A stretch of 64,000 nt of DNA from the NCBI GenBank assembly GCA_902583715.1, contig CACHXC010000003.1, forward strand, positions 1 to 64,000. The letters are read 5' to 3'. A program made the translations under genes and the position numbers. This document shows positions 50,895-64,000 of the stretch, piece by piece (the stretch's first letter is position 1; every line of letters starts with the position of its first letter). This stretch comes from an uncultured SAR116 cluster alpha proteobacterium (GTDB lineage Bacteria > Pseudomonadota > Alphaproteobacteria > Puniceispirillales > Puniceispirillaceae). Below the pieces are notes generated by a model. It did no database searches. It was not told the origin of the DNA and was given only the letters and a program-made list of their open reading frames with translations.

Positions 50895-52145
50895 ATGCGG
50901 TTTTCAGGGTTTAAAATCATCAGGGAAGGGCTCAGCGGCCATAAAGGATGGGATGCCACTTGGCGTGACGCCACGCCAAAGTCGCATTATGACCACATTA
51001 TCATTGGGGGCGGCGGTCATGGGCTGGCGACAGCTTATTATCTGGCGCGGCGTTATGGCAAAGCGAACATCGCGGTCGTTGAAAAGGGCTGGCTTGGCGG
51101 CGGCAATGTTGGACGTAACACCACGATTATCCGGTCAAACTATTTGTTGGACGGCAATGAGCCATTTTACGAATTATCGTTAAAGCTCTGGGAAGGTCTG
51201 GAGCAGGATTTAAATTACAATGCAATGATCAGCCAGCGCGGTATCTTGAACCTGTTTCATACTGATGCCCAGCGTGATGCCTATATTCGCCGCGGCAATG
51301 CCATGCTTTTGAACGGCGCAGATGCCGATCTTCTCACAACAGATCAAATCAAAAACCGCTATCCGTTTTTGAACACCAAAGATGCTCGCTTTCCGATTAA
51401 GGGTGGCCTTGCCCAGCATCGCGGTGGCACGGTGCGCCATGATGCGGTGGCTTGGGGATATGCAAGGGCGGCGAGCCTTCTTGGCGTTGATATTATACAG
51501 AATTGTGAAGTCACCGGTCTTGATATCAAGAACAATAAATGTGTCGGCGTAATAACCACCCGAGGTCCAATTAAGGGCGGCAAAATAGCATGTTGTGTTG
51601 CCGGGTCGTCTAGCCGGGTGATGGCAATGGCAGGCATGCGCCTACCAATCGAAAGCCATGTGTTGCAGGCATTCGTTTCAGAAGGATTAAAGCCGTTGAT
51701 TCCTGGCGTCATCACTTTTGGCGCGGGGCATTTTTACTGTAGTCAGTCGGACAAAGGCGGTCTGGTATTTGGCGGCGATATTGATGGCTATAATTCCTAT
51801 GCACAACGCGGCAATTTGCCGATTGTCGAAGATGTCTGCGAAGGCGGCATGGCAATTTTGCCAAATCTTGGACGGTTGCGCTTGTTGCGCATGTGGGGTG
51901 GCATCATGGATATGTCGATGGACGGGTCGCCGATCATTGACAAAACACCAATTGAAAATCTCTATTTTAACGGGGGATGGTGTTATGGCGGCTTTAAGGC
52001 AACGCCCGCATCAGGCCTGTGTTACGCCCATCTTTTGGCCACCGACACACCCCATGAAACAGCCACGGCCTATCGATTTGACCGCTTTGAAAAAGGCTTG
52101 ATGATCGATGAAAAAGGTCAAGGTAACCAGCCAAATCTGCATTAA
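50895..52145 (+). CDS. soxB: Sarcosine oxidase subunit beta
   Basis: A 416-residue flavoprotein subunit. The FAD dinucleotide-binding motif IIIGGGGHGLATAYYLARRYG lies near residue 35, GGNVGRNTTIIRSNY near 75 and the C-terminal NGGWCYGGFKATPASG near 362. It is the DAO-fold subunit that oxidises sarcosine (or dimethylglycine) to glycine and formaldehyde equivalents, holding FAD and covalent FMN at the interface with SoxA. It is the first gene of soxBDAG. Confidence 0.93.
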   Translation: MRFSGFKIIREGLSGHKGWDATWRDATPKSHYDHIIIGGGGHGLATAYYLARRYGKANIAVVEKGWLGGGNVGRNTTIIRSNYLLDGNEPFYELSLKLWEGLEQDLNYNAMISQRGILNLFHTDAQRDAYIRRGNAMLLNGADADLLTTDQIKNRYPFLNTKDARFPIKGGLAQHRGGTVRHDAVAWGYARAASLLGVDIIQNCEVTGLDIKNNKCVGVITTRGPIKGGKIACCVAGSSSRVMAMAGMRLPIESHVLQAFVSEGLKPLIPGVITFGAGHFYCSQSDKGGLVFGGDIDGYNSYAQRGNLPIVEDVCEGGMAILPNLGRLRLLRMWGGIMDMSMDGSPIIDKTPIENLYFNGGWCYGGFKATPASGLCYAHLLATDTPHETATAYRFDRFEKGLMIDEKGQGNQPNLH

Positions 52146-52159
52146 AGAAGGGCGATGAC

Positions 52160-52447
52160 ATGATTATCAACCACCCCCTTTTAGGGCCAAGAGATGCCGC
52201 TGAATTTACTTATCTTGGTGATGCTGGCCTGATCGACCGGCCTGATGGCATGGCTGAAAATGCTCTGCCAGCCTTTATTGATTATGGCTATCTGCGGGAT
52301 AATGTCGCCGGAAACCATCGCGAATTATGGTTCCATGAACAGGGTGACAGATCATGGCTTGTAGTTACCAGACATACAGTAACACACGAGATTACTAACG
52401 TTGAGCTTGCGAGTGACGTGGCGCGCAAAAGAGGGCGTTCAAAATGA
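52160..52447 (+). CDS. soxD: Sarcosine oxidase subunit delta (Cys-poor variant)
   Basis: A 95-residue SoxD. INHPLLGPRDAAEFTYLGDA near the N-terminus, GYLRDNVAGNHRELWFHEQGDRSWLVVTRHTVTHEI near 50-85 align with the family. Classical SoxD binds zinc through Cys residues in a CPxCG motif and a later GC; here those positions are HPLLG and GD, so the zinc site is lost or different. The gene overlaps soxA by 4 bases (ATGA). Confidence 0.87.
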   Translation: MIINHPLLGPRDAAEFTYLGDAGLIDRPDGMAENALPAFIDYGYLRDNVAGNHRELWFHEQGDRSWLVVTRHTVTHEITNVELASDVARKRGRSK

Positions 52448-55395
52448 CCCAAACACGCAGATTAACCGGTGGGTTGATTGACCGGCAACGGCCGCTGAAT
52501 TTTGAATTTGATGGTAGGAAATACACTGGCTATCAAGGGGATACGCTGGCCTCGGCCCTGCTGGCAAATGGTGTCCAGCTTATGGGGCGGTCATTCAAAT
52601 ATCACCGTCCGCGCGGACCGTTTAGCTCTGGTTCGGAAGAACCAAACGCCATTGTCGAATTACGTGAAGGTGCGCGCAAAGAGCCAAACACCCGTGCCAC
52701 TACAATTGAGCTTTATGATGAACTGATTGCGACATCGCAAAACAGATGGCCATCACTTGGTTTTGACATGATGGCGGTTAATGACCTGTTTTCAAATTTT
52801 CTGACCGCCGGGTTTTACTACAAGACATTCATGTGGCCAGCGGCATTTTGGGAAAAATTATATGAACCGATTATTCGCCGTGCCGCGGGGCTGGGCAAAG
52901 CCAGCCTCGAGCCAGACCCGGACTGTTATGACAAGGGGTTTTTGCATTGTGATCTTTTGATCATTGGCGGCGGGCCAGCCGGTTTGGCGGCGGCACTGGT
53001 GGCAGGCCGGGCGGGTCTGGATGTCATTTTAGCGGATGAGGATTTTCTGATTGGCGGCCGGCTTAATCAGGAGAGCTATAGCCTTGATGACCAGGCCGGA
53101 TCTGTCTTTGCTGCCTTGCGCTATGAAGAATTGACCAGCCTGCCCAATGTAAGAATCATGACAAGAACCACTGTCATTGGGGCGTTTGATCATGGTATTT
53201 ATGGCATGGTTGAACGTGTGGCTGATCATATGAAAGTGCCGGCTGATGGCCAGCCGCGCCAACGGTTATGGCGGGTGTATAGCCAGTCTGCATTATTATG
53301 TGCGGGGGCGACGGAACGTTCGATTGCGTTTGAAAATAACGACCGGCCGGGAATTATGCTGGCTGGGGCTATGCGGGCCTTTGCCAATCGCTGGGCAACA
53401 GCTGTTGGTGACCGTATTGCAATTTTTGCCAATAATGATGACGCGCACCGCACAGCGCATGATCTTCACCAACTTGGTGTTGAAATTGCCGCGGTGATTG
53501 ACAGCCGGCCAGAGGCCCCGGCGAATGACAGTTTTGAGGTTTTGATGGCATCTGAAGTGGTGAACACGCATGGCCGGCTGGGTCTTAATTCGATTGACGT
53601 GAAAACCCCTCAAGGCTTGCGCCAAATTCAGGTAAGCGGGCTTGGGGTGTCAGGCGGCTGGAACCCAAATATTCATCTCACCTGCCATCAACGTGGGCGC
53701 CCAAAATGGGATGCCGGTCTGTCCGCATTTGTGCCGTCGGTTGACTTGCCAAAAGCACTTTTTGTTGCTGGTGCGGCCAATGGCCAGATGACAACCGCCG
53801 CCGCGATACAAGATGCCGTCACTACTGCGATGAAGATTGCTACAGACTGCGGGCGCAAACCAACATCGCTGGCCATACCAAAAACATCAGATGAATCAGC
53901 ATCCATTACACCATTTTGGTATGTGACCGGGACTGAACGCGGTTGGGTCGACCAACAAAATGATGTAACGGTCAAAGATATCAAGCTGGCGCATCAGGAA
54001 AATTTCCGTTCGGTTGAACATCTCAAACGCTATACCACTTTGGGCATGGCCACCGATCAGGGCAAAACATCGAATGTTTTGGGTCTGGCGATTATGGCGC
54101 ATACCGCCGGCCAGTCCATTCCTGATACTGGCACGACAATTTACCGGCCACCCTATAGCCCGACAGCTATCGGGGTATTTGCTGGGCGGTCGCGCGATAT
54201 GGATTTTCGGCCAATACGTAAGACGCCAAGTCACAAATGGGCCGAAGAACAAGGCGCGGTGTTTGTCGAGGTGGGCATGTGGTACCGGGCACAATGGTTT
54301 CCGCAGGATGGAGAAACGCATTGGCGGCAGTCGGTCGATCGTGAAGTTGCAACAACCCGTTCATCAGTTGGTGTATGTGATGTCACAACGCTCGGCAAAA
54401 TTGACGTGCAGGGTAGTGATGCCGCAGCCTTTTTGAATAAAATTTACTGCAATGGCTTTGCTAAGGTGGATGTTGGTAAAACCCGCTATGGCCTGATGTT
54501 GCGTGAAGATGGAATCGCCATGGATGATGGCACCGCGGCGCGGCTGGCCGAAGACCATTTCGTTGTCACAACAACAACGGCAAATGCGGTTGGCGTTTAT
54601 CGTCATATGGAATTTGCCCGGCAGGTTTTGTGGCCTGATCTGGATGTACAATTGATTTCGACGACCGAATCATGGGCGCAATATGCAGTGGCTGGGCCGC
54701 ATGCGCGTAATTTATTGCGTAAAATTGTCGATGCTGAATTTGATATATCAAATGAGGCATTCCCCTTTATGGCTTGTGGCGCCATCACTGTATGCGGCGG
54801 ACTGCGTGCGCGGTTATTCCGTATCTCTTTTTCGGGTGAGTTAGCTTATGAAATTGCCGTGCCGACCCGCTATGGTGACGCCATGATGCGAGCCCTAGTC
54901 GAGGCCGGTGAGGAATTTGGTGGCTGTGCATACGGCACTGAGGCACTTGGCGTGATGCGTATCGAAAAAGGGCATGCGACAAGCAATGAATTAAATGGTA
55001 CCACGACAGCCTTGAATTTGGGAATGGGCCGGATGGTGTCAACGCGTAAAGACTCCATCGGTGCGGTATTGTCACGTCGTGACGGTTTGGTGGCAGATGA
55101 TGCGCTTAAGCTTGTCGGGTTCAAGCCACGCCGTGATAGTGACTCGGTGCCGGCCGGATCGCATCTGATGACCAAGGGTAGCCCAGTCGATGCCGCGCAC
55201 GACCAAGGCTATGTGACATCAGCCTGCTATTCGCCAACGCTTGGCCACCATATCGCCATTGGATTTTTAAAATCTGGCGACCAGCGCCTTGGCGAGATCA
55301 TTCGTCTTGTCAGTCCGCTAACCAATATCGAACATGATGTCGAAGTGGTATCAGCCCATTTTGTCGATCCAGAGGGAGATAAACTTCGTGCCTAA
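52444..55395 (+). CDS. soxA: Sarcosine oxidase subunit alpha
   Basis: A 983-residue large subunit. Order: an N-terminal ferredoxin-like fold lacking cluster cysteines (residues about 20-100, with SFKYHRPRG), an NAD-binding Rossmann domain with LLIIGGGPAGLAAALVAGRAG near 175, a central pyridine-nucleotide-disulfide-like region, and a C-terminal glycine cleavage T-type folate domain (about 600-983) with GVCDVTTLGKIDVQG and GVMRIEKGHATSNELNG. The T-domain binds tetrahydrofolate and captures the one-carbon unit as methylene-THF. It overlaps soxG by 8 bases. Confidence 0.95.
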   Translation: MTQTRRLTGGLIDRQRPLNFEFDGRKYTGYQGDTLASALLANGVQLMGRSFKYHRPRGPFSSGSEEPNAIVELREGARKEPNTRATTIELYDELIATSQNRWPSLGFDMMAVNDLFSNFLTAGFYYKTFMWPAAFWEKLYEPIIRRAAGLGKASLEPDPDCYDKGFLHCDLLIIGGGPAGLAAALVAGRAGLDVILADEDFLIGGRLNQESYSLDDQAGSVFAALRYEELTSLPNVRIMTRTTVIGAFDHGIYGMVERVADHMKVPADGQPRQRLWRVYSQSALLCAGATERSIAFENNDRPGIMLAGAMRAFANRWATAVGDRIAIFANNDDAHRTAHDLHQLGVEIAAVIDSRPEAPANDSFEVLMASEVVNTHGRLGLNSIDVKTPQGLRQIQVSGLGVSGGWNPNIHLTCHQRGRPKWDAGLSAFVPSVDLPKALFVAGAANGQMTTAAAIQDAVTTAMKIATDCGRKPTSLAIPKTSDESASITPFWYVTGTERGWVDQQNDVTVKDIKLAHQENFRSVEHLKRYTTLGMATDQGKTSNVLGLAIMAHTAGQSIPDTGTTIYRPPYSPTAIGVFAGRSRDMDFRPIRKTPSHKWAEEQGAVFVEVGMWYRAQWFPQDGETHWRQSVDREVATTRSSVGVCDVTTLGKIDVQGSDAAAFLNKIYCNGFAKVDVGKTRYGLMLREDGIAMDDGTAARLAEDHFVVTTTTANAVGVYRHMEFARQVLWPDLDVQLISTTESWAQYAVAGPHARNLLRKIVDAEFDISNEAFPFMACGAITVCGGLRARLFRISFSGELAYEIAVPTRYGDAMMRALVEAGEEFGGCAYGTEALGVMRIEKGHATSNELNGTTTALNLGMGRMVSTRKDSIGAVLSRRDGLVADDALKLVGFKPRRDSDSVPAGSHLMTKGSPVDAAHDQGYVTSACYSPTLGHHIAIGFLKSGDQRLGEIIRLVSPLTNIEHDVEVVSAHFVDPEGDKLRA

Positions 55396-55951
55396 TTTAA
55401 CTGCTCTATCGCCTCTTGGATTTACCGCACCGCATAAAGTCGTTGTGAGTGCTTATACTATCAGCGAGGTTACCGATCGGGCGATGGCATCAATCACTGC
55501 CCGCAAAGGCTCTGCTTCCGCCGTAAAAACCATTTTGACCAAAATTTTAAACCAGTCGGCACCAGAGGTTGGCGGTTATTGTGCTGGCGAGGTTGAGGCT
55601 TTTTGGACCGGACAGGGGCAATGGATGTTGACCGCGCCCTTCGATGATCATGAAGACATCGTAGCTAGCTTTGTTGGCATTTTCAAAGGTAAGGCGTCGC
55701 TTACCGAACAAACTGATGGATGGTGCCGCTTTGCTATTGCCGGGCAAGATATTGACCGGCTATGCTCACTGTTATGTAATATAGATATGCGCACGCTGAT
55801 GGCCGGAAAGGCTAACCGCACATCGATTGAGCATATTGGCTGTTTTCTTGTACGTATTGCTGATGAGTGTTTACACATTATTGCACCGCGTTCGAGTGCA
55901 GGATCTCTCTATCATGCTATTTCTGCAGCCGCCAAATCAGTACGTTTTTAG
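55388..55951 (+). CDS. soxG: Sarcosine oxidase subunit gamma (GTG start)
   Basis: A 187-residue SoxG. It starts with GTG (VPNLTALSPLG) about 9 bases after GAGGGAG inside the end of soxA; a longer frame upstream has no site. Family segments are WTGQGQWML near residue 77, TEQTDGWCRFAIAG near 108 and SIEHIGCFLVRIADECLHIIAPRSSAGSLYHAI in the last third. It completes the four-subunit enzyme. Downstream, 240 bases to the next gene hold nothing I recognise. Confidence 0.88.
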   Translation: MPNLTALSPLGFTAPHKVVVSAYTISEVTDRAMASITARKGSASAVKTILTKILNQSAPEVGGYCAGEVEAFWTGQGQWMLTAPFDDHEDIVASFVGIFKGKASLTEQTDGWCRFAIAGQDIDRLCSLLCNIDMRTLMAGKANRTSIEHIGCFLVRIADECLHIIAPRSSAGSLYHAISAAAKSVRF

Positions 55952-56194
55952 GCTCTTGAACCCCTAAAATGAACAGAACTCACGCATTTTTTGACGAGGA
56001 TCTTTGGCAAAATTTATCAGTATTGATGCCTATGAGACTGGCTCGGTACCTCAATAATTGCTCAACAATGTCTAAAATCACCAGGTTGCCATAAATTTTC
56101 ATGATTTATGTCTCTGATTTACGACAAAGTCTGATAGTCTTTTCTGAGGCTTATGTATTAAATCTGGAACGCAAACACTTTGGTGGAACCTAAC

Positions 56195-56590
56195 ATGGAT
56201 CAGGGATTGAACAAAGCTAGGATAGTCATTGGCCATGGAAGCGACTTTGAGATTGTTTGGGTCGAGGATCTTGCTACTCTCTCAGAGATTGAGGGTTTGC
56301 TTAAGACCATGAATGCCGCCTCAGGTAGCTTGTCAAAAGAAGCAATTCTGGCAACGCTTGATCCAAAAGTTCATTACTGTTTGGACAGGTGTGACAATTC
56401 AATTCAGTCGGTCGCTGAACTTATCGAAAATTTCACTTTTTTGGATGCAACAATTTTCCACAATAGGGAAATGCATGCTTCATTGCACCAAAAAATTTCC
56501 ATTCAAACAGATCGATTTGCTGAATTTAGTTTGTATTTATCTTGTCTGCGCGATGCACTCTCAACATTGCATAATGCTGAGCGTTGTTAG
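56195..56590 (+). CDS. Hypothetical protein, 131 residues
   Basis: A small protein from an ATG 8 bases after GTGGAAC (an in-frame TTG and GTG lie a few codons upstream). I do not recognise it. It is acidic to neutral with two probable helices, has Cys at positions near 64, 68, 115 and the C-terminal residue, and no transmembrane segment. It lies upstream of the molybdopterin oxidoreductase in the same direction, separated by about 90 bases, so it may belong to that module. Confidence 0.55.
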   Translation: MDQGLNKARIVIGHGSDFEIVWVEDLATLSEIEGLLKTMNAASGSLSKEAILATLDPKVHYCLDRCDNSIQSVAELIENFTFLDATIFHNREMHASLHQKISIQTDRFAEFSLYLSCLRDALSTLHNAERC

Positions 56591-56682: not shown

Positions 56683-58791
56683 TTGGCGAACATAGAAAAT
56701 CTTGATGCCAAACGAGAAGATCAGACTTTCAAGACGGTTTGTCCACATGATTGCCCATCAGCTTGTGGGCTGGAAGTCACACTGGATAAATTTGGCAAGA
56801 TTACGAAGGTACGTGGTGGCCAAAATCACAGCTATACTGATGGGGTTGTTTGCGCGAAAGTTGCGCGATATGCGGAGCGTCTTTATCACCCAAAAAGGCT
56901 AACGGTTCCGCTTCGTCGAGCGGGCAAAAAAGGCAGTGGCAAATATAACGAAATTAGTTGGGATGAAGCTTTAGAGGAGATTGCTTGGCGGTTTGATGAA
57001 ATATCTACACGCCATGGTAGTGAGGCGGTGTGGTTATACTATTTTGCTGGAACTATGGGTTTATTAATGAGAGACGGAATAAACCGTCTCGCGAGAGCCA
57101 AACAATACTCTGGTATGTATGGCACCATTTGCGTCAATCCTGCATGGACTGGCTTCATGGGTGGTACCGGTTTAATAGCTGGTGTTGATCCGCGTGAGAT
57201 GGCGCTCTCGGATTGTGTAGTACTTTGGGGCACCAACCCAGTAAATACACAAGTAAACGTCATGCGGCATGCAACGAGAGCTCGCAAAACGCGAAATGCC
57301 AAAATTGTTCATATTGACATTTACTATAATGCAACTTCAAAGCAAGCAGACTTAGCTTTGATCATAAAGCCAGGCACAGATGCAGCACTCGCTTGTGCGG
57401 TTATGCATATCCTGTTTCGTGATAAACATGCAGACCTTGACTATCTATATGAATATTCTGACTGTCCAGACAAACTTCGAGACCACCTGGCAGCCAGGAC
57501 ACCTGAATGGGCGAGTAAGATAACGGGTTTATCAACTGGTGAAATTGAGACGTTTGCGCAACTTCTGGGTAACGCTCCTCGAAGCTATTTTCGTCTCGGT
57601 TATGGTTTTACCCGTCAACGCAACGGAGCTGTCAACATGCATGCCGCTTTATCTGTTGCTACAGTTCTGGGTGCGTGGAAATACGAGGGTGGTGGCGCTT
57701 TCCACAACAATACTAATATTTATCGATGGAATAAAACTTTAATTGAGGGCTTGGATATGGACTCGCCCGCTAGAATGTTGGATCAGTCGCGCATTGGTGA
57801 AATTCTTTGTGGAGACAAAGAAGCTCTGCGCGGCGGTGGTCCAGTTAGGGCAATGTTGATCCAGAATACTAATCCAGCAGTTGTTGCACCTGACACTAAC
57901 AAAGTCCTGGAAGGCCTAAAAAGAGACGATTTGTTTTTAGTGGTTCATGAACAATTTATGACTGAGACAGCCAGTTTAGCTGATGTGATATTACCTGCTA
58001 CCATGTTTCTGGAGCATGATGACCTTTATCAAGGAGGAGGGCACCAGCATATCATGCTGGGGCAAAAGCTTGTGGATGTTCCAGGCGATTGCCGATCCAA
58101 TCACCAAGTTATTTCAGAACTTGGACAACGATTAGGGGTTTTTCATGACGAATTTGATGTTGATGAAGCTGATTTTCTACGTCGAACACTACAGGATTCG
58201 GAGCGACCATCTCTGGACAAGTTTCTGGAGGATCCATGGCTCGATTGTCAGCCAGATTTTGAGCAATCGCATTATTTAAAGGGCTTTTCGTTTGAAGATG
58301 GAAAGTTTCGCTTCTCGGTTGATTGGAAAGCGTTATTGCCCAAAGGCTACGTCAGCAATGAATTATTGGATAATATGCCGCAGTTGCCTGATCATTGGAG
58401 TGTATTAGAGTCCACTGGGTCAAACACTGGATTTTGCCTCGTTACTGCGCCAGCTAGACATTTTTTAAACTCCAGTTTCACCGAAACTCGGACCTCACGC
58501 AGGTTGGAGGGGCGTCCGTGTGTGCTTATCCATTCTCTTGATGCAGCAAAATTAAATATAGAGGATGGAAGCGTTTGTGAGATTGGGAATAATCGCGGAC
58601 AAGTCATTATTCACGCCAAATTATTTGATGGGTTGAAAAGAGGTGTCTTAGTGGTTGAGAGCCTATGGCCAAACAAAAGTTATATTGGAGGTGTTGGGGT
58701 AAATAGCCTTACAGGCTCCGATCCTGTTGCTCCAGTGGGTGGGGTGGCGTTCCACGATAATGCGGTTTGGATTAAACCACATGAGAGATGA
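56683..58791 (+). CDS. Molybdopterin oxidoreductase with N-terminal [4Fe-4S] site (TTG start)
   Basis: A 702-residue DMSO-reductase-family protein. The N-terminal iron-sulfur site is C20-x3-C24-x3-C28-x28-C57. The catalytic Mo-bisMGD domains follow (about 65-560), with VCAKVARYAERLYHP near 56 and VVHEQFMTETASLADVILPATMFLEHDD near 420. The C-terminal cofactor-binding beta barrel (about 590-702) contains VESLWPNKSYIGGVGVNSLT. The start is a TTG preceded by AGGAG; no ATG precedes the cysteine cluster. Formate dehydrogenase-like or other hydride/oxo chemistry is possible. It has no Tat signal, so it is cytoplasmic. The hydratase-like genes begin at or just beyond its stop. Confidence 0.87.
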   Translation: MANIENLDAKREDQTFKTVCPHDCPSACGLEVTLDKFGKITKVRGGQNHSYTDGVVCAKVARYAERLYHPKRLTVPLRRAGKKGSGKYNEISWDEALEEIAWRFDEISTRHGSEAVWLYYFAGTMGLLMRDGINRLARAKQYSGMYGTICVNPAWTGFMGGTGLIAGVDPREMALSDCVVLWGTNPVNTQVNVMRHATRARKTRNAKIVHIDIYYNATSKQADLALIIKPGTDAALACAVMHILFRDKHADLDYLYEYSDCPDKLRDHLAARTPEWASKITGLSTGEIETFAQLLGNAPRSYFRLGYGFTRQRNGAVNMHAALSVATVLGAWKYEGGGAFHNNTNIYRWNKTLIEGLDMDSPARMLDQSRIGEILCGDKEALRGGGPVRAMLIQNTNPAVVAPDTNKVLEGLKRDDLFLVVHEQFMTETASLADVILPATMFLEHDDLYQGGGHQHIMLGQKLVDVPGDCRSNHQVISELGQRLGVFHDEFDVDEADFLRRTLQDSERPSLDKFLEDPWLDCQPDFEQSHYLKGFSFEDGKFRFSVDWKALLPKGYVSNELLDNMPQLPDHWSVLESTGSNTGFCLVTAPARHFLNSSFTETRTSRRLEGRPCVLIHSLDAAKLNIEDGSVCEIGNNRGQVIIHAKLFDGLKRGVLVVESLWPNKSYIGGVGVNSLTGSDPVAPVGGVAFHDNAVWIKPHER

Positions 58792-59176
58792 CCGCAAGTC
58801 CATGATTGAGCCCCAAAGTGGAGGTAGATTGGCACATGATCTAGGTGGCTTTCTTGAACATTTGTTGTGCCATGGCATTGACGTAAGTATTTCAAAAGAA
58901 GAAACGCTAAAGCAACCTTACGAGGAACGCACGGACGCCCTTTTGTTGCTTCTCAGCGCTGCGGGTAGAGGTCTTTTGAATGTCCATGCCATGCGACGAG
59001 CATCGGAGCAATTTAATCATGAGGATTACTTAAAGCTGTCTTATTATGACAGGTGGTTGAGGGCAATGGTTGCGCTCTGCATTGAGGAAGGCATTTTTTC
59101 AGAAGAGGAATGGCTTGTCAAACGTCAGCAGGTGAAGAGGCAGAGCGAAGCAATTCAACGCAGGAAAAGTGATTGA
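58781..59176 (+). CDS. Nitrile hydratase beta N-half / thiocyanate hydrolase beta-like subunit
   Basis: A 131-residue helical protein resembling the N-terminal half of nitrile hydratase beta subunit and the beta subunit (ScnB) of thiocyanate hydrolase. The core reads FNHEDYLKLSYYDRWLRAMVALCIEEGIFSEEEW near residues 72-105 of the frame, like the beta-subunit YYxxWL segment. The ATG at 58781 overlaps the oxidoreductase by 11 bases; another ATG at 58802 is as likely. The same fold is used by nitrile hydratase activator (P14K-type) proteins, so an activator role is the main alternative. The next gene begins 3 bases after its stop. Confidence 0.7.
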   Translation: MRDDRKSMIEPQSGGRLAHDLGGFLEHLLCHGIDVSISKEETLKQPYEERTDALLLLLSAAGRGLLNVHAMRRASEQFNHEDYLKLSYYDRWLRAMVALCIEEGIFSEEEWLVKRQQVKRQSEAIQRRKSD

Positions 59177-59179
59177 GAT

Positions 59180-59467
59180 ATGACTGAAGTGCAGGAATTC
59201 CAAATCGGACAAATGGTGAATGTAAAAAGTGTTTGCACAAACAAGCATCATCGAGTTCCCTTCTATTTGAAGGGAAAAATTGGAAAAGTTACAGAATATT
59301 TGGGCCTTGTGGAAAACCCGGAGTCAGCTGCTTACTCAAAATACAATCTTGACGTATACCCTTTGTATCGCGTTTGTTTCAAGCAGACAAGCCTTTGGGG
59401 CGGTGAGCAAAATGGTGAGATTTATGCTGATCTTGCCGGAAAATGGCTTTTTGAAGTAGAGGTGTGA
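59180..59467 (+). CDS. Nitrile hydratase beta C-half / thiocyanate hydrolase alpha-like subunit
   Basis: A 95-residue SH3-barrel protein matching the C-terminal half of nitrile hydratase beta. FQIGQMVNVKSVC, HRVPFYLKGKIGKVTEYLG and YPLYRVCFKQTSLWG are the usual beta-C segments. In thiocyanate hydrolase this half is a separate subunit (ScnA). It overlaps the alpha-type gene by 4 bases (GTGA). In fused enzymes both halves are one chain, so the split is genuine: the two frames are separate and each has its own start. Confidence 0.78.
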   Translation: MTEVQEFQIGQMVNVKSVCTNKHHRVPFYLKGKIGKVTEYLGLVENPESAAYSKYNLDVYPLYRVCFKQTSLWGGEQNGEIYADLAGKWLFEVEV

Positions 59468-60096
59468 TAGTGCCAACGGAACATAGTCATGGTCATCCGA
59501 CGGATCCTGATATTGATGCCCACGCTCTTTCAGAGGGGCAAATTCTTGAGATGGCTTTACGAGAGCTGCTTATAGAAAAAGGGGTTGTCACTCAACCTGA
59601 ACTGAATGAACAGATGAACAGAACTGCATCTCAGTCGGCTTCTTTTGGAGCTTCTGTCATTGCTAGGGCATGGAAAGATGAAGAATTTAAACGCATATTA
59701 TTAAATAACCCCAAAGCGGCAATCACTGATCTTGGTTATGACGTTTCACAAATGCCTGATCTGGTCATTGTTGAAAACAAGAGTCAAATACACAATGTCG
59801 TTGTCTGCACTTTGTGCTCATGTTATCCGCGATATATGCTTGGCCCACCTCCCGAGTGGTACCGAAGCGCTGCTTATCGAGCGCGTATTGTTCGTGACCC
59901 GCGTGAAGTTTTGCTCGAATTTGGACTTAAACTACCACCGGATATAAAAATCCGAGTTTATGATAGTACTGCTGATTTGAGATATATGGTTATGCCATTG
60001 TGTCCACAGGGAGCTGAGAGTATGCCTATTGATAAACTTGCGGCGCTTGTCACGAGGGACAGTATGATTGGGGTTGGAACTCCACGATTACTTTAA
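59464..60096 (+). CDS. Nitrile hydratase alpha / thiocyanate hydrolase gamma-like catalytic subunit
   Basis: A 210-residue catalytic subunit. The metal claw C115-T-L-C118-S-C120 is present; Thr (rather than Ser) after the first Cys indicates a cobalt-type centre. In mature enzymes C118 and C120 are oxidised to sulfinic and sulfenic acids. Downstream, GPPPEWYRSAAYRARIVRDPR and the VLPxxPxG-like MVMPLCPQGAE are family segments. The gene starts with GTG overlapping the beta-C gene. Gene order beta-N, beta-C, alpha matches scnB-scnA-scnC of thiocyanate hydrolase. The reaction could be nitrile to amide, cyanide to formamide, or thiocyanate to carbonyl sulfide plus ammonia. Confidence 0.85.
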   Translation: MIVPTEHSHGHPTDPDIDAHALSEGQILEMALRELLIEKGVVTQPELNEQMNRTASQSASFGASVIARAWKDEEFKRILLNNPKAAITDLGYDVSQMPDLVIVENKSQIHNVVVCTLCSCYPRYMLGPPPEWYRSAAYRARIVRDPREVLLEFGLKLPPDIKIRVYDSTADLRYMVMPLCPQGAESMPIDKLAALVTRDSMIGVGTPRLL

Positions 60097-60267
60097 AAAC
60101 TGATAACCAACTTGCACTAGTAATACTTCTTGTAAATTGGTTAGAAGAAAAACATGATTTATTAATTTTCGAATCAATCAAACACTTTTATTGACCGCAA
60201 GATATTTCAAGAAATTATGATTTTTGCCGCCATTTGTGCTAGATTTCTAGAATTGAAAGGTTGTTAG

Positions 60268-61284
60268 ATGCCAACGTCTGCTTCTGTTGTTAGTATTGGC
60301 GACACCGAGCTGCAAAGCGGTGTTGTTCTACCTGACTTAAAAATCTCACATAGTACTTTCGGGACTTTGAATGCCACGCGTAGCAATGCAATTCTGTTGC
60401 CGACGTTTTATGGTGGCAAACACTCCGACTATGAGCCAATGATTGGTGTTGACAAGGCGCTGGACCCATCTAAATATTTTATTATTGTGGTCGATATGAT
60501 GTGCAATGGTCTGTCATCATCACCTTCCAATAGCGCATCGCCATTTTCAGGAGCAAATTTTCCTAAAGTCACCCATTGGGACAACGTGCATGCGCAACAG
60601 AAAATGCTTGAACAGGGGTATGGTATTGAGTCGCTGTCACTAGTATCTGGTTTTTCGATGGGTGGGCAGCAGGCCAATCATTGGGCAGCAATTTTTCCAG
60701 ACCGGGTTGAGAGAATGATCTCATGGTGTGGAAGTGCGGTAACATCTCCTCATAATTGGGTCTTCCTCGAGGGTGTAAAAGCAGGGTTAGTTACTGATCC
60801 AACGTTTGCGGGTGGTGCTTATGTAAATCCACCTGAGGCGGGTATTCGTGCCTTTGCTCGGATCTGGGCTGGCTGGGGGCCTTCACAGGCTTTTTATAGG
60901 AATAAACTGCATGTAGATTTGGGTCAGGCGACGGCCGCGGATCATATGAGTGAATTTTGGGAGCCTAATTTTTTAGCATTCGATGCTAATGATCTATTGG
61001 GAATGATGCACACATGGCAAGTTGCAAACATTGCTGATAATGAGATTTATAACGGTGATTTTGAGGCAGCGTGCAAGGCGATCAAAGCTAAGACAATTTT
61101 AATGCCTTGCGAGACTGACCTTTACTTTCCAGTTGCTGACAATGAAATCCAGGCATCGTTAATGACAAATGCAGAGTTGCGTCCCATTCCCTCTGATTGG
61201 GGGCACATCGCAGGAGCACCGGGGCTCAATCCAGTTGATAGCGCTTTTATCGACAATGCGCACCGTGAATTGCTCGCATCCTAA
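60268..61284 (+). CDS. MetX-like alpha/beta hydrolase
   Basis: A 338-residue alpha/beta hydrolase of the homoserine O-acetyltransferase (MetX) type. The nucleophile Ser is in GFSMGG near residue 131, the Asp in CETDLYFP near 277 and the His in WGHIAG near 311. The segment LPTFYGGKHSDYEPMIG near 48 is like MetX. No methionine genes are nearby; it lies between the hydratase-like genes and a formamidase, so hydrolysis or acyl transfer on a catabolic intermediate is more likely. AAAGG precedes the ATG. The 170-base gap before it may hold a promoter. Confidence 0.8.
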   Translation: MPTSASVVSIGDTELQSGVVLPDLKISHSTFGTLNATRSNAILLPTFYGGKHSDYEPMIGVDKALDPSKYFIIVVDMMCNGLSSSPSNSASPFSGANFPKVTHWDNVHAQQKMLEQGYGIESLSLVSGFSMGGQQANHWAAIFPDRVERMISWCGSAVTSPHNWVFLEGVKAGLVTDPTFAGGAYVNPPEAGIRAFARIWAGWGPSQAFYRNKLHVDLGQATAADHMSEFWEPNFLAFDANDLLGMMHTWQVANIADNEIYNGDFEAACKAIKAKTILMPCETDLYFPVADNEIQASLMTNAELRPIPSDWGHIAGAPGLNPVDSAFIDNAHRELLAS

Positions 61285-61337
61285 ATTAGGCACATTCAAT
61301 TTTGTGCCACAATAATCATATTCAGGAAAATTTCGAC

Positions 61338-62276
61338 ATGACAAAAGGTAAAACTGAACAAGGTAGGGCACTCTTCCGCAGAGATGAGCTGAAATTTGCT
61401 TTCGTGGCAACCGATGACTTTGTTGGCACCGTCAATACTGGCCAAATTTTTGAGGTTGAAACTGAAATAAACATAAATGGTGGTGTATTGACAAGTTTGG
61501 ATAAACAACTCACCGAAGATGACGTCACTTTGCCGTTTGTGAACCCTGTTACAGGTCCTATCAAAGTAGAAGGTGCGAAAGCTGGTGACATGCTTCGAGT
61601 TTTTATCCACAAAGTTGATGTGGAGGGCATTGGCACCACAGCATTGTGGCCTGGGGTTGGCATTTTTCCAGATTGGTGTCGTCAGAAAGAATTTGGAATA
61701 AAGAATCACAATGTTCGGGTTAAAGATGGGATCGTCCATTGGTCAGATAAAGTTAAACTACCCGTCAAACCAATGATTGGGTGTATCGCAACAGCACCAG
61801 TAAATGGCGGGCTTATGACAGTCGATTGTGATAAGGTTGGCGGTAATTTGGACGTACAGGAAGTGACTGACGGAAACGTTGTGATGTTACCTGTCCACCA
61901 TGATGGCGCCTATCTTTATCTAGGCGATTGTCATGCTATTCAAGGTGATGGTGAGTGCAATGGCATGGGAGCTATTGAAATCGCTGCGCACCTGACAGTC
62001 GAGGTGGAAGTAAGTCCTCGTCCTCCAGAAATGACTTGGCCACGAATAGACACTCCAACTCACATCTGTACCATAGGTTGTGCTAGGCCTCTTGAAGATG
62101 CGATGAGGTTAGCGTTTCAAGAAATGGTGTTTTGGTTAAGTGCAGATTATGGGCTTAGTTATGAGGAGGCATATATGCTTTTGGGGCAGGTTGCAGAGGC
62201 AAGATGCACACAAATGGTTAATCCAAAATACACCTATATTTGTAAAGTATCAAAAGATGTGTTGGAGCAACTCTAG
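61338..62276 (+). CDS. Acetamidase/formamidase family protein
   Basis: A 312-residue protein of the FmdA/AmdA family, which hydrolyses formamide or acetamide to the acid and ammonia. GTVNTGQIFEVETEININGG near residue 27, VTGPIKVEGAKAGDMLRVFI near 65, and MLPVHHDGAYLYLGDCHAIQGDGE near 185 are family segments with the conserved His/Asp/Glu residues. The ATG at 61338 follows AGGAA by about 10 bases; a 12-codon longer frame has no site. Downstream of a hydratase-like enzyme it is the expected next step (amide to acid). Confidence 0.87.
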   Translation: MTKGKTEQGRALFRRDELKFAFVATDDFVGTVNTGQIFEVETEININGGVLTSLDKQLTEDDVTLPFVNPVTGPIKVEGAKAGDMLRVFIHKVDVEGIGTTALWPGVGIFPDWCRQKEFGIKNHNVRVKDGIVHWSDKVKLPVKPMIGCIATAPVNGGLMTVDCDKVGGNLDVQEVTDGNVVMLPVHHDGAYLYLGDCHAIQGDGECNGMGAIEIAAHLTVEVEVSPRPPEMTWPRIDTPTHICTIGCARPLEDAMRLAFQEMVFWLSADYGLSYEEAYMLLGQVAEARCTQMVNPKYTYICKVSKDVLEQL

Positions 62277-62338
62277 TATCAACAGTTGATATATTGACAG
62301 CCTTAATTAGTAGACCTCAACAAAGGGAGACCTGTTAC

Positions 62339-62752
62339 ATGGTGTATACAACCAATATAACCCGTATTAATTATTCGGCGGCAAGCAAAATGATTGCTGC
62401 CGCGGTTGCGAGAGCCGATGAGATGAATGTACCTCAATGTATCGCGATCATGGATCCATCAGGCGGCCTTGTTTGTTTCGCCAGAACGGATGGTGCTGCC
62501 GATCTGGCTTCTGGTCCGGCGTATGCGAAAGCGCGGGTCGCAGCGGAGCGCCAGCACCCGTCTGGTGCATTACCAAAAGAATTTGAAGTCGGTGTAGCTT
62601 TTGCGACTGGCGGTCAATACACCAATCTACCAGGTGGCTTGCCAATCGTTTTGGATGGCATCCATATAGGTGGCATTGGTGTCAGTGGGGGCTCTGGAGA
62701 TGATGATCTGGATGTGGCGAGGGCAGGGTTGGCTGCCATCGGAGCTACGTAG
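62339..62752 (+). CDS. GlcG/HbpS family protein
   Basis: A 137-residue protein of the HbpS/GlcG (DUF336) fold. MIAAAVARADEMNVPQCIAIMD near the N-terminus and PGGLPIVLDGIHIGGIGVSGGSGDDD near the end are the family landmarks. Members bind haem or cobalamin or have unknown roles, often beside catabolic operons. The ATG at 62339 follows GGGAG; a longer frame adds 15 residues. It is the last gene of the plus-strand module and converges on the unknown paralogues. Confidence 0.85.
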   Translation: MVYTTNITRINYSAASKMIAAAVARADEMNVPQCIAIMDPSGGLVCFARTDGAADLASGPAYAKARVAAERQHPSGALPKEFEVGVAFATGGQYTNLPGGLPIVLDGIHIGGIGVSGGSGDDDLDVARAGLAAIGAT

Positions 62753-62770: not shown

Positions 62771-63394
62771 TCACTTGTCTGGGAAAATCCAAGTTTCCGA
62801 GAAATAGAGGAAAGCTGTTGAAAGTTCTAGACCCGCTTGCTCACGAGATACTGGATGTCCTTCAAGTTTCCGTCCGTTGACTTCAACAAAACAAGATTTG
62901 GAGTCAACAAGTAGGCTGTACATCACATGTTCGCCCGTTCCAGTGAGTTCTGGAGGTAATTCAAGAGCCGTTGGCTTGCCAAGCTCTTCCCAGACTAATT
63001 TGATGCTTAATCCGTCACCAATTACAGTTTCGCTGTAAAAATCTCCGCACGGGTCTCCCTCAGTTACCACTTTGTCAATTTTAAGCTGTGACGAAGCTGA
63101 ATAAGCGGGCACGTTGCCGAAGGTGCCAAGTTTTTCAATAAAACCCGTTTTGATGTAGTCACGTAACGCTTCATTATCGGCCATTATTACATTACAACAT
63201 TCAGGCATACCCGCATTTTTGTTAGGGTTTTCATACAACAATAAAATGTTACCCGGACCGACGGGTGACCAAACAATTCGGAAAAAAAGCATGAGAACCG
63301 ACCAGTCTCCCGCCGGATCAGTCTTTAACAGCATCCCGGGGTTTTCGCCAGTCCAATCAACATTACCGGTTCTTACATTTGGTTTTATTGGCAT
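62771..63394 (-). CDS. Unknown protein, paralogue A of a tandem pair
   Basis: A 207-residue protein I do not recognise. It contains DWTGENPGMLLKTDPAGDWSVLMLFFRIVWSP near the N-terminus and ALELPPELTGTGEHVMYSLLVDSKSCFVEVNGRKLEGHPVSR near the C-terminus, ending with an AFLYFSETWIFP motif. It looks beta-rich, with no signal peptide or transmembrane segment. The ATG at 63394 follows GGTGGA by 7 bases. It is clearly homologous to the upstream gene (shared GENPG, LFFRIV and SETW segments), so the two arose by tandem duplication. The family may be known under a DUF name that I cannot supply. Confidence 0.8.
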   Translation of the reverse strand: MPIKPNVRTGNVDWTGENPGMLLKTDPAGDWSVLMLFFRIVWSPVGPGNILLLYENPNKNAGMPECCNVIMADNEALRDYIKTGFIEKLGTFGNVPAYSASSQLKIDKVVTEGDPCGDFYSETVIGDGLSIKLVWEELGKPTALELPPELTGTGEHVMYSLLVDSKSCFVEVNGRKLEGHPVSREQAGLELSTAFLYFSETWIFPDK

Positions 63395-63411
63395 GGTTTT
63401 TTCCACCAATT

Positions 63412-63999
63412 TTATTTAGGGCTGACCCAAGTTTCAGATAGTGCGAGGAACGCGGTGCTCATTGTCCGACCAAAAAACTGCCGGTTTACAACTTGACCTT
63501 GCAATGGAGTTCCATTTATCGATATTTGGGCATCACTTGCTTCCAAAAATACCGCGTACATATCGTGCTCTTTTGTAGCTGACGCGTCCGGACCAACTTC
63601 AATTGCCATGGGCGCCTGGAGGTCCAGCCAAGTCATTTGCACCGTTAAGTCTCTAGCAGATAGTTCCTCTGTGTAACTATTGGGCATGTCGCTATTTTTT
63701 TGAATATTGCTGGTAACATCAAACCAGCTCATTGCAGTAACTGCTGCTTTACCAGCCATGGTTGGAAATTTCGAGGCAAAATTATTAATCAGATAATTCA
63801 TCATGGGACGATTATTTGTAAGGCAAAGATTGGGGACATCAGGGTAACCAGATGGCTTGTCAGGATCACCAAGAATAATGGCGCCAACGCCCCGCCCGTG
63901 TGGTGATAAGACGATCCTGAAGAATAGTGCTACTACCGAGTAATCACCATCAGGATTTTCCTTTAAATAAATGCCTGGATTTTCACCGGACCATTCCAC
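63412..63999 (-). CDS. Unknown protein, paralogue B of a tandem pair; 5' end outside window
   Basis: At least 195 residues, open to the right edge, so the start is outside. The visible part aligns end to end with paralogue A: WSGENPGIYLKENPDGDYSVVALFFRIVLSP near its beginning, the KEHDMYAVFLEASDAQISINGTPLQGQVVNR stretch, and SETWVSPK at the end. The stop is 17 bases before paralogue A's ATG, so they are cotranscribed. Function unknown. Confidence 0.78.
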   Translation of the reverse strand: MEWSGENPGIYLKENPDGDYSVVALFFRIVLSPHGRGVGAIILGDPDKPSGYPDVPNLCLTNNRPMMNYLINNFASKFPTMAGKAAVTAMSWFDVTSNIQKNSDMPNSYTEELSARDLTVQMTWLDLQAPMAIEVGPDASATKEHDMYAVFLEASDAQISINGTPLQGQVVNRQFFGRTMSTAFLALSETWVSPK

Positions 64000-64000
64000 T

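Follow-up and report, generated by a model that had tools for sequence, protein, structure and literature searches.

What does a compact run of plus-strand genes, in which a predicted molybdenum oxidoreductase stands beside a three-part hydratase and an amide hydrolase, do in a member of SAR116, an abundant surface-ocean group? For the window (the whole 64,000-nucleotide stretch analyzed), a sequence-only reading had proposed a single linked module in which a hydratase turns HCN or a simple nitrile into formamide or another amide, FmdA yields formate, and the Mo enzyme oxidizes formate to CO2, thereby supplying nitrogen.

The block and the island that contains it

Pfam and NCBIfam domain matches recovered all seven plus-strand genes in the order proposed, and matches to PF21006, PF02211 and PF02979 bear out the claim that three small genes form one enzyme of the nitrile hydratase (NHase) fold (Table 1). 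The proposed gene list was nonetheless incomplete, as it overlooked orf136 (56180-56590) and a conserved convergent operon starting at 62771. The Mo, betaN, betaC and alpha genes are a tightly coupled four-gene run, with an 11-bp overlap at the Mo/betaN junction, a 3-bp gap between betaN and betaC, and a 4-bp overlap (GTGA) between betaC and alpha. Three open reading frames had been listed from positions other than their probable starts: betaN from 58727, where conservation and sequence make the ATG at 58781 likelier, FmdA-1 from 61302 (probable ATG, 61338), and HbpS from 62294 (probable ATG, 62339).

Table 1. Genes of the island that touch the window
Feature	Position	Strand	Evidence and remarks
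orf136	56180..56590	+	Likely ATG 56195; Cys (YCLDRC) and His residues conserved
[4Fe-4S] Mo-bisMGD oxidoreductase, FDH/DMSO-reductase superfamily (predicted)	56683..58791	+	PF00384, PF04879, PF01568
NHase betaN (scnB-like, N-terminal half of NHase beta)	58781..59176	+	PF21006, E 7e-15
NHase betaC (scnA-like, C-terminal half of NHase beta)	59180..59467	+	PF02211, E 3e-15
NHase alpha / thiocyanate hydrolase gamma-like, Co-type CTLCSCYPR loop	59464..60096	+	PF02979, E 5e-74
MetX-like alpha/beta hydrolase, PRK07581 subfamily, Ser in GFSMGG	60268..61284	+	NF005757
FmdA-1, short acetamidase/formamidase-family hydrolase, GD-HA-GDGE core	61338..62276	+	PF03069
HbpS/GlcG-like protein	62339..62752	+	PF03928, E 6e-29
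f2a, ~205 aa, in tandem with f2b, final gene of the convergent ABC/Rieske operon	62771..63409	-	Kept in 7/7 genomes
f2b, second paralogue	63412..64000	-	Starts beyond the window, at contig position 64029

This block makes up half of an island of about 24 kb and 24 genes (contig C3:56180-79996), the first ten of which touch the window. On the opposite strand, 3' of HbpS in the same genomes, lie f2a, f2b, a polyamine-type ABC import system (PotA-like ATPase, a periplasmic binding protein at C3:65159-66226, and two permeases) and Rieske oxygenase 1; beyond it follow genes for an SDR, an EamA transporter, a VanB-like reductase, an alpha/beta hydrolase, an ALDH, Rieske oxygenase 2, an AllG-like protein, an amidase and FmdA-2. 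Gene order over this entire region is the same in genomes G020, G022, G030, G044 and G035, the last missing only the part that precedes its contig start, and G040 is interrupted by a contig end. The genes flanking the region differ, or are not adjacent, among carriers. The sarcosine-oxidase-like genes soxBDAG (50895-55951) lie directly 5' of the block in the window; they were rejected as members of the unit, as sarcosine oxidase genes stand beside the block in none of the other six genomes. Beyond the opposite end of the island are genes for glutamate synthase-like and type III glutamine synthetase proteins (C3:84592-88939).

Judged from their predicted products, most protein families of the island are known, orf136 and the f2 family being those for which no model is available. 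The orf136 product matched nothing in Pfam or NCBIfam and yielded a weak structure model (pLDDT 60); it carries a further Cys/His-containing motif, HNR-MHASLH, and could serve the operon as an accessory protein for metal handling. Members of the f2 family carry the motif WSGENPG. For f2a, which has no Pfam match, a low-confidence model (pLDDT 63) gave no Foldseek match at E <=0.001; the best match on a second structural comparison was the acetoacetate decarboxylase fold (Z 7.1, rmsd 4.4, 135 aligned), a likeness that may reflect a common arrangement. The f2 family occurs in ~10% of sampled alphaproteobacterial genomes, sometimes adjoining Rieske oxygenases, and its contexts proved too varied to serve as a functional clue.

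Conservation and co-inheritance in SAR116

Searches with each gene (tblastn) revealed the same order, orf136-Mo-betaN-betaC-alpha-MetX-like-FmdA-HbpS, in G020 (a complete genome of 2.75 Mb), G022, G030, G040 and G044; G035, whose contig begins inside the Mo gene, carries the block without orf136 and the start of that gene. Five SAR116 genomes besides this one have orf136 5' of the Mo gene, at 39-68% identity; it is present there in every carrier whose contig extends that far. The HbpS proteins of the six other carriers show 80-92% identity. Because block order is maintained in seven SAR116 genomes at protein identities of 39-92%, and the seven genes tested give dN/dS values of 0.05-0.37 between close pairs, the arrangement is not a product of chance, and the block is under purifying selection.

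Across 61 SAR116-family genomes, NHase alpha (counted as present at >=65% identity), Mo, MetX-like, FmdA and Rieske 1 genes occurred in exactly the same seven, which span three genera. The five genes clearly follow an all-or-none pattern, which together with the conserved order upholds the proposal of one linked module; the seven carriers do not amount to seven independent events, given the relatedness of the genomes and the incompleteness of many of them. One genome without the full set (G046) retains a broken MetX-like remnant, and another (G002) has a Rieske relative at ~50%. An island that is wholly present or wholly absent may mark a specific dissolved organic nitrogen substrate. We found no description of this gene set and its strict co-inheritance in the open-access literature searched, in agreement with the earlier statement that no system with this set had been described, and the same literature held nothing relevant on SAR116 or Puniceispirillum in connection with nitrile hydratase or nitriles.

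The hydratase, the Mo enzyme and the hydrolases

The alpha motif VCTLCSCYPR is invariant in all seven genomes, with its CTLCSC metal-binding loop intact, and all metal-binding and oxidized-Cys-stabilizing residues of NHases are kept. MRRASEQF in betaN and HHRVP in betaC contain arginines of the R52 and R157 type, respectively, whose role in NHase beta has been described (PMC7193024), and both align with the beta subunit of the ordinary NHase of the same genome. The island enzyme is predicted to use cobalt; neither an NHase activator gene nor a cobalt transporter gene was recognized in the island.

The ordinary NHase, encoded on contig C36 (L048:1410-3047), is a two-part Co-type enzyme with a single beta and an activator. 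Its alpha subunit scores 282.4 bits, above the NHase alpha cutoff of 249.85 (TIGR01323), whereas the island alpha remains below it at 229.5. The residue following CTLCSCYP is Trp in this and other ordinary two-part enzymes, and Arg in the SAR116 type, in sampled three-part enzymes, in the fused forms of G021 and in an annotated scnC. Phylogenetic analysis placed the SAR116 type in one clade and the Trp type in another (both 100/100), in a tree that lacks resolution of the branching order among Arg-type groups. The fused forms of G021, which belongs to another SAR116 genus, are two Arg-type NHase fusion genes with an amidase-like gene between them (L050:7542-11291). Three-part NHases were already known, and databases usually label the Arg-type three-part hydratases plain nitrile hydratase.

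The Mo protein reaches none of the NCBIfam cutoffs of the families listed, its best model being Fdh-alpha (TIGR01591; 244.4 bits versus a cutoff of 666.25). The TIC Cys at its Mo-ligand position is kept across 81 aligned sequences and aligns with the ligand Cys of FdhF (7qv7), but the next residue is Val (ICVNP) instead of His (LCHAP), and is V or T in the relatives shown. The formate dehydrogenase reading was rejected on the family score and the replaced catalytic His, and no formate dehydrogenase partner or electron-transfer subunit adjoins the gene. Relatives at 56-62% identity form a widespread solo family, common in Rhizobiales and other proteobacteria; their neighbors at 77 loci (L056-L132) are mostly unrelated genes, with no NHase, FmdA or MetX-like genes near them in the non-SAR116 loci examined, and these neighborhoods offered no clue to function. 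The proposed oxidation of formate to CO2 consequently finds no footing in this protein.

FmdA-1 belongs to PF03069 (98 bits, cutoff 27), with 5ubu as its closest solved chain. The earlier formamide step also fared poorly: formamide is not an established substrate, because FmdA-1 scores 67.9 bits against the formamidase model NF045496, whose cutoff is 500. The protein is rare, its only close matches among 385 alphaproteobacterial genomes being in SAR116; a 64% relative is encoded on a Paraburkholderia plasmid with genes for heme-binding, MetX-like, amidase and cytosine permease proteins. The MetX-like hydrolase passes the cutoff of its own subfamily, PRK07581 (NF005757; 444.5 bits, cutoff 332), and not that of the MetX homoserine O-acyltransferases (TIGR01392; 132.3 bits, cutoff 500); its closest solved chain is 5d6o. 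In Paraburkholderia and Roseibium, genes for amidases, formamidases and transporters of cytosine or urea are found close to its relatives.

Proposed function, alternatives and known systems

Our preferred account, to which we assign roughly even chances, is that the island serves the catabolism of an imported organic-nitrogen compound, in the course of which hydration of a nitrile-type intermediate would give an amide for FmdA or the amidase to cleave. Gene content, linkage and active-site conservation are observed directly; family knowledge guides the reading of import, step order and nitrile-type substrate. The ABC importer would take up a small organic-nitrogen compound, which the two Rieske oxygenases (with the VanB-like reductase) and the Mo-bisMGD enzyme would oxidize or reduce; the putative cobalt three-part enzyme of the NHase/thiocyanate hydrolase family would then convert a C-N triple-bond intermediate to a primary amide. 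The FmdA-type hydrolases and the amidase would release ammonia, and the MetX-like and other alpha/beta hydrolases, together with the ALDH, would finish the carbon skeleton. The nitrile-to-amide-to-acid-plus-NH3 sequence suggested earlier fits the adjoining NHase-type and FmdA-type enzymes. In favor of this account stand the exact co-occurrence and shared gene order, the intact CTLCSC center with both beta arginines, the low dN/dS, the company of amidases and nitrogen-compound transporters around relatives of the MetX-like hydrolase, and two loci outside SAR116: the G256 cluster described below, and Ruegeria conchae, which carries the order Rieske2 (71%)-f2-f2-AllG-amidase without the Mo-NHase part, its f2a relative (47%) adjoining a Rieske gene.

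Several points count against this account: no nitrile-forming enzyme (aldoxime dehydratase or similar) was recognized, nor was an NHase activator or cobalt transporter gene in the island, and the predicted Rieske, solute-binding and Mo proteins have no known substrate. Furthermore, a distant alphaproteobacterium (G256:C17, L182) clusters MetX-like, amidase, f2, ABC, Rieske, ALDH and reductase genes without the Mo/NHase/FmdA part. Here genes from both halves of the island stand together in a lineage separate from SAR116 and, since this related core lacks the hydratase, nitrile hydration may be part of a side branch.

A more specific version, which we put forward tentatively and consider doubtful in its details, is a marine pathway in which the Rieske and Mo enzymes open an imported organic-nitrogen solute to a nitrile or isonitrile, and the Arg-type cobalt hydratase turns this into an amide for FmdA, hydration being a step within natural-product catabolism instead of nitrile detoxification. 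Such a pathway, if true, would give Arg-type three-part hydratases a natural role. Homarine as the catabolized compound, suggested by the Rieske genes and by N-methylglutamate-type genes nearby, is left as a guess because no paper on homarine catabolism with this gene set was found in the open-access literature searched.

Among the alternatives, the hydratase-fold enzyme might act on a non-nitrile bond, such as that of a cyclic imine or heterocycle, in the degradation of an N-heterocycle or ureide. The presence in the island of an AllG homologue, an amidase, two FmdA proteins and two Rieske oxygenases is consistent with this, as is the location of an AllG relative beside the oxalurate gene hpxZ in Azospirillum and the fact that no nitrile-making gene was recognized. 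However, retention of every NHase metal-binding and oxidized-Cys-stabilizing residue makes a non-nitrile role unlikely, and the activities of this family, to our knowledge, are nitrile, isonitrile and thiocyanate hydration. That the enzyme is instead a thiocyanate hydrolase (SCN- + 2 H2O -> COS + NH3), the rest of the island being unrelated, appears improbable. The Arg after CTLCSCYP matches an annotated scnC, and the three-part architecture and betaN-betaC-alpha order match scnB-scnA-scnC of Thiobacillus thioparus; yet this Arg is common to every sampled three-part NHase, the alpha subunit fits the NHase alpha model better than the thiocyanate hydrolase gamma model (TIGR03887; 190.7 bits, 291.45 needed), the genes are strictly linked to amide hydrolases, and no gene for handling COS or sulfur was seen in the island.

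The original cyanide-to-formate scheme is the one we hold to be very improbable. The NHase and FmdA genes do adjoin and are co-inherited, and Fdh-alpha is the top NCBIfam score of the Mo protein; against this stand the low scores of the Mo protein (244 versus 666 bits) and FmdA-1 (68 versus 500), the Val in place of His, the missing partner subunits, and the lack of linkage between the Mo family and the other block genes outside SAR116. HCN as the substrate is further disfavored by the size of the unit, which also holds two Rieske oxygenases and an importer that the scheme does not need.

Comparison with known systems places these observations in context. The Mo protein shares with formate dehydrogenase alpha (TIGR01591) the [4Fe-4S] and Mo-bisMGD domains and the Cys metal ligand, but is far below the family cutoff and lacks the catalytic His and the electron-transfer subunits. 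AmiC/ANTAR-regulated amidase-formamidase clusters of Paraburkholderia and Roseibium combine a MetX-like relative (50-54%) with amidases, a formamidase and transporters of nitrogen compounds; the stretches shown contain neither an NHase nor a Mo enzyme nor any Rieske oxygenase. Auxin degradation employs the Rieske enzyme IadDE, along with IadI, annotated as a kynurenine formamidase (PMC12633357); it was rejected as a model, its gene set differing from that of the island.

The hydratase itself resembles thiocyanate hydrolase (scnBAC) in having beta in two proteins, an alpha-like subunit and the CTLCSCYPR loop, but the SAR116 alpha lies 100 bits under the TIGR03887 cutoff and its genes are associated with those for amide hydrolases and for Mo and Rieske enzymes. 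A family search of 249 genomes returned no true thiocyanate hydrolase above cutoff. The scnC used for comparison is one annotated gene from a Roseomonas plasmid record, at whose locus CbtAB cobalt genes adjoin and the SH3-like part of beta is a single protein of 283 aa, whereas the SAR116 block has no CbtAB and divides this part into two pieces. With Co-type NHase (nthAB plus activator) the SAR116 type shares the alpha family, CTLCSC and both beta arginines, and differs in its split beta, the lack of a visible activator, Arg for Trp and a sub-cutoff TIGR01323 score. The three-part NHases of Planktothrix, Rhizobium and several alphaproteobacteria also combine two SH3-like/beta pieces with alpha and the Arg motif. 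The linkage of homologues of the alpha protein (59464-60096) to FmdA and Mo genes, for which the sequence-only reading had suggested a survey, was found in the seven SAR116 genomes and in none of the other three-part NHases examined, and the SAR116 type stands as a clade of its own.
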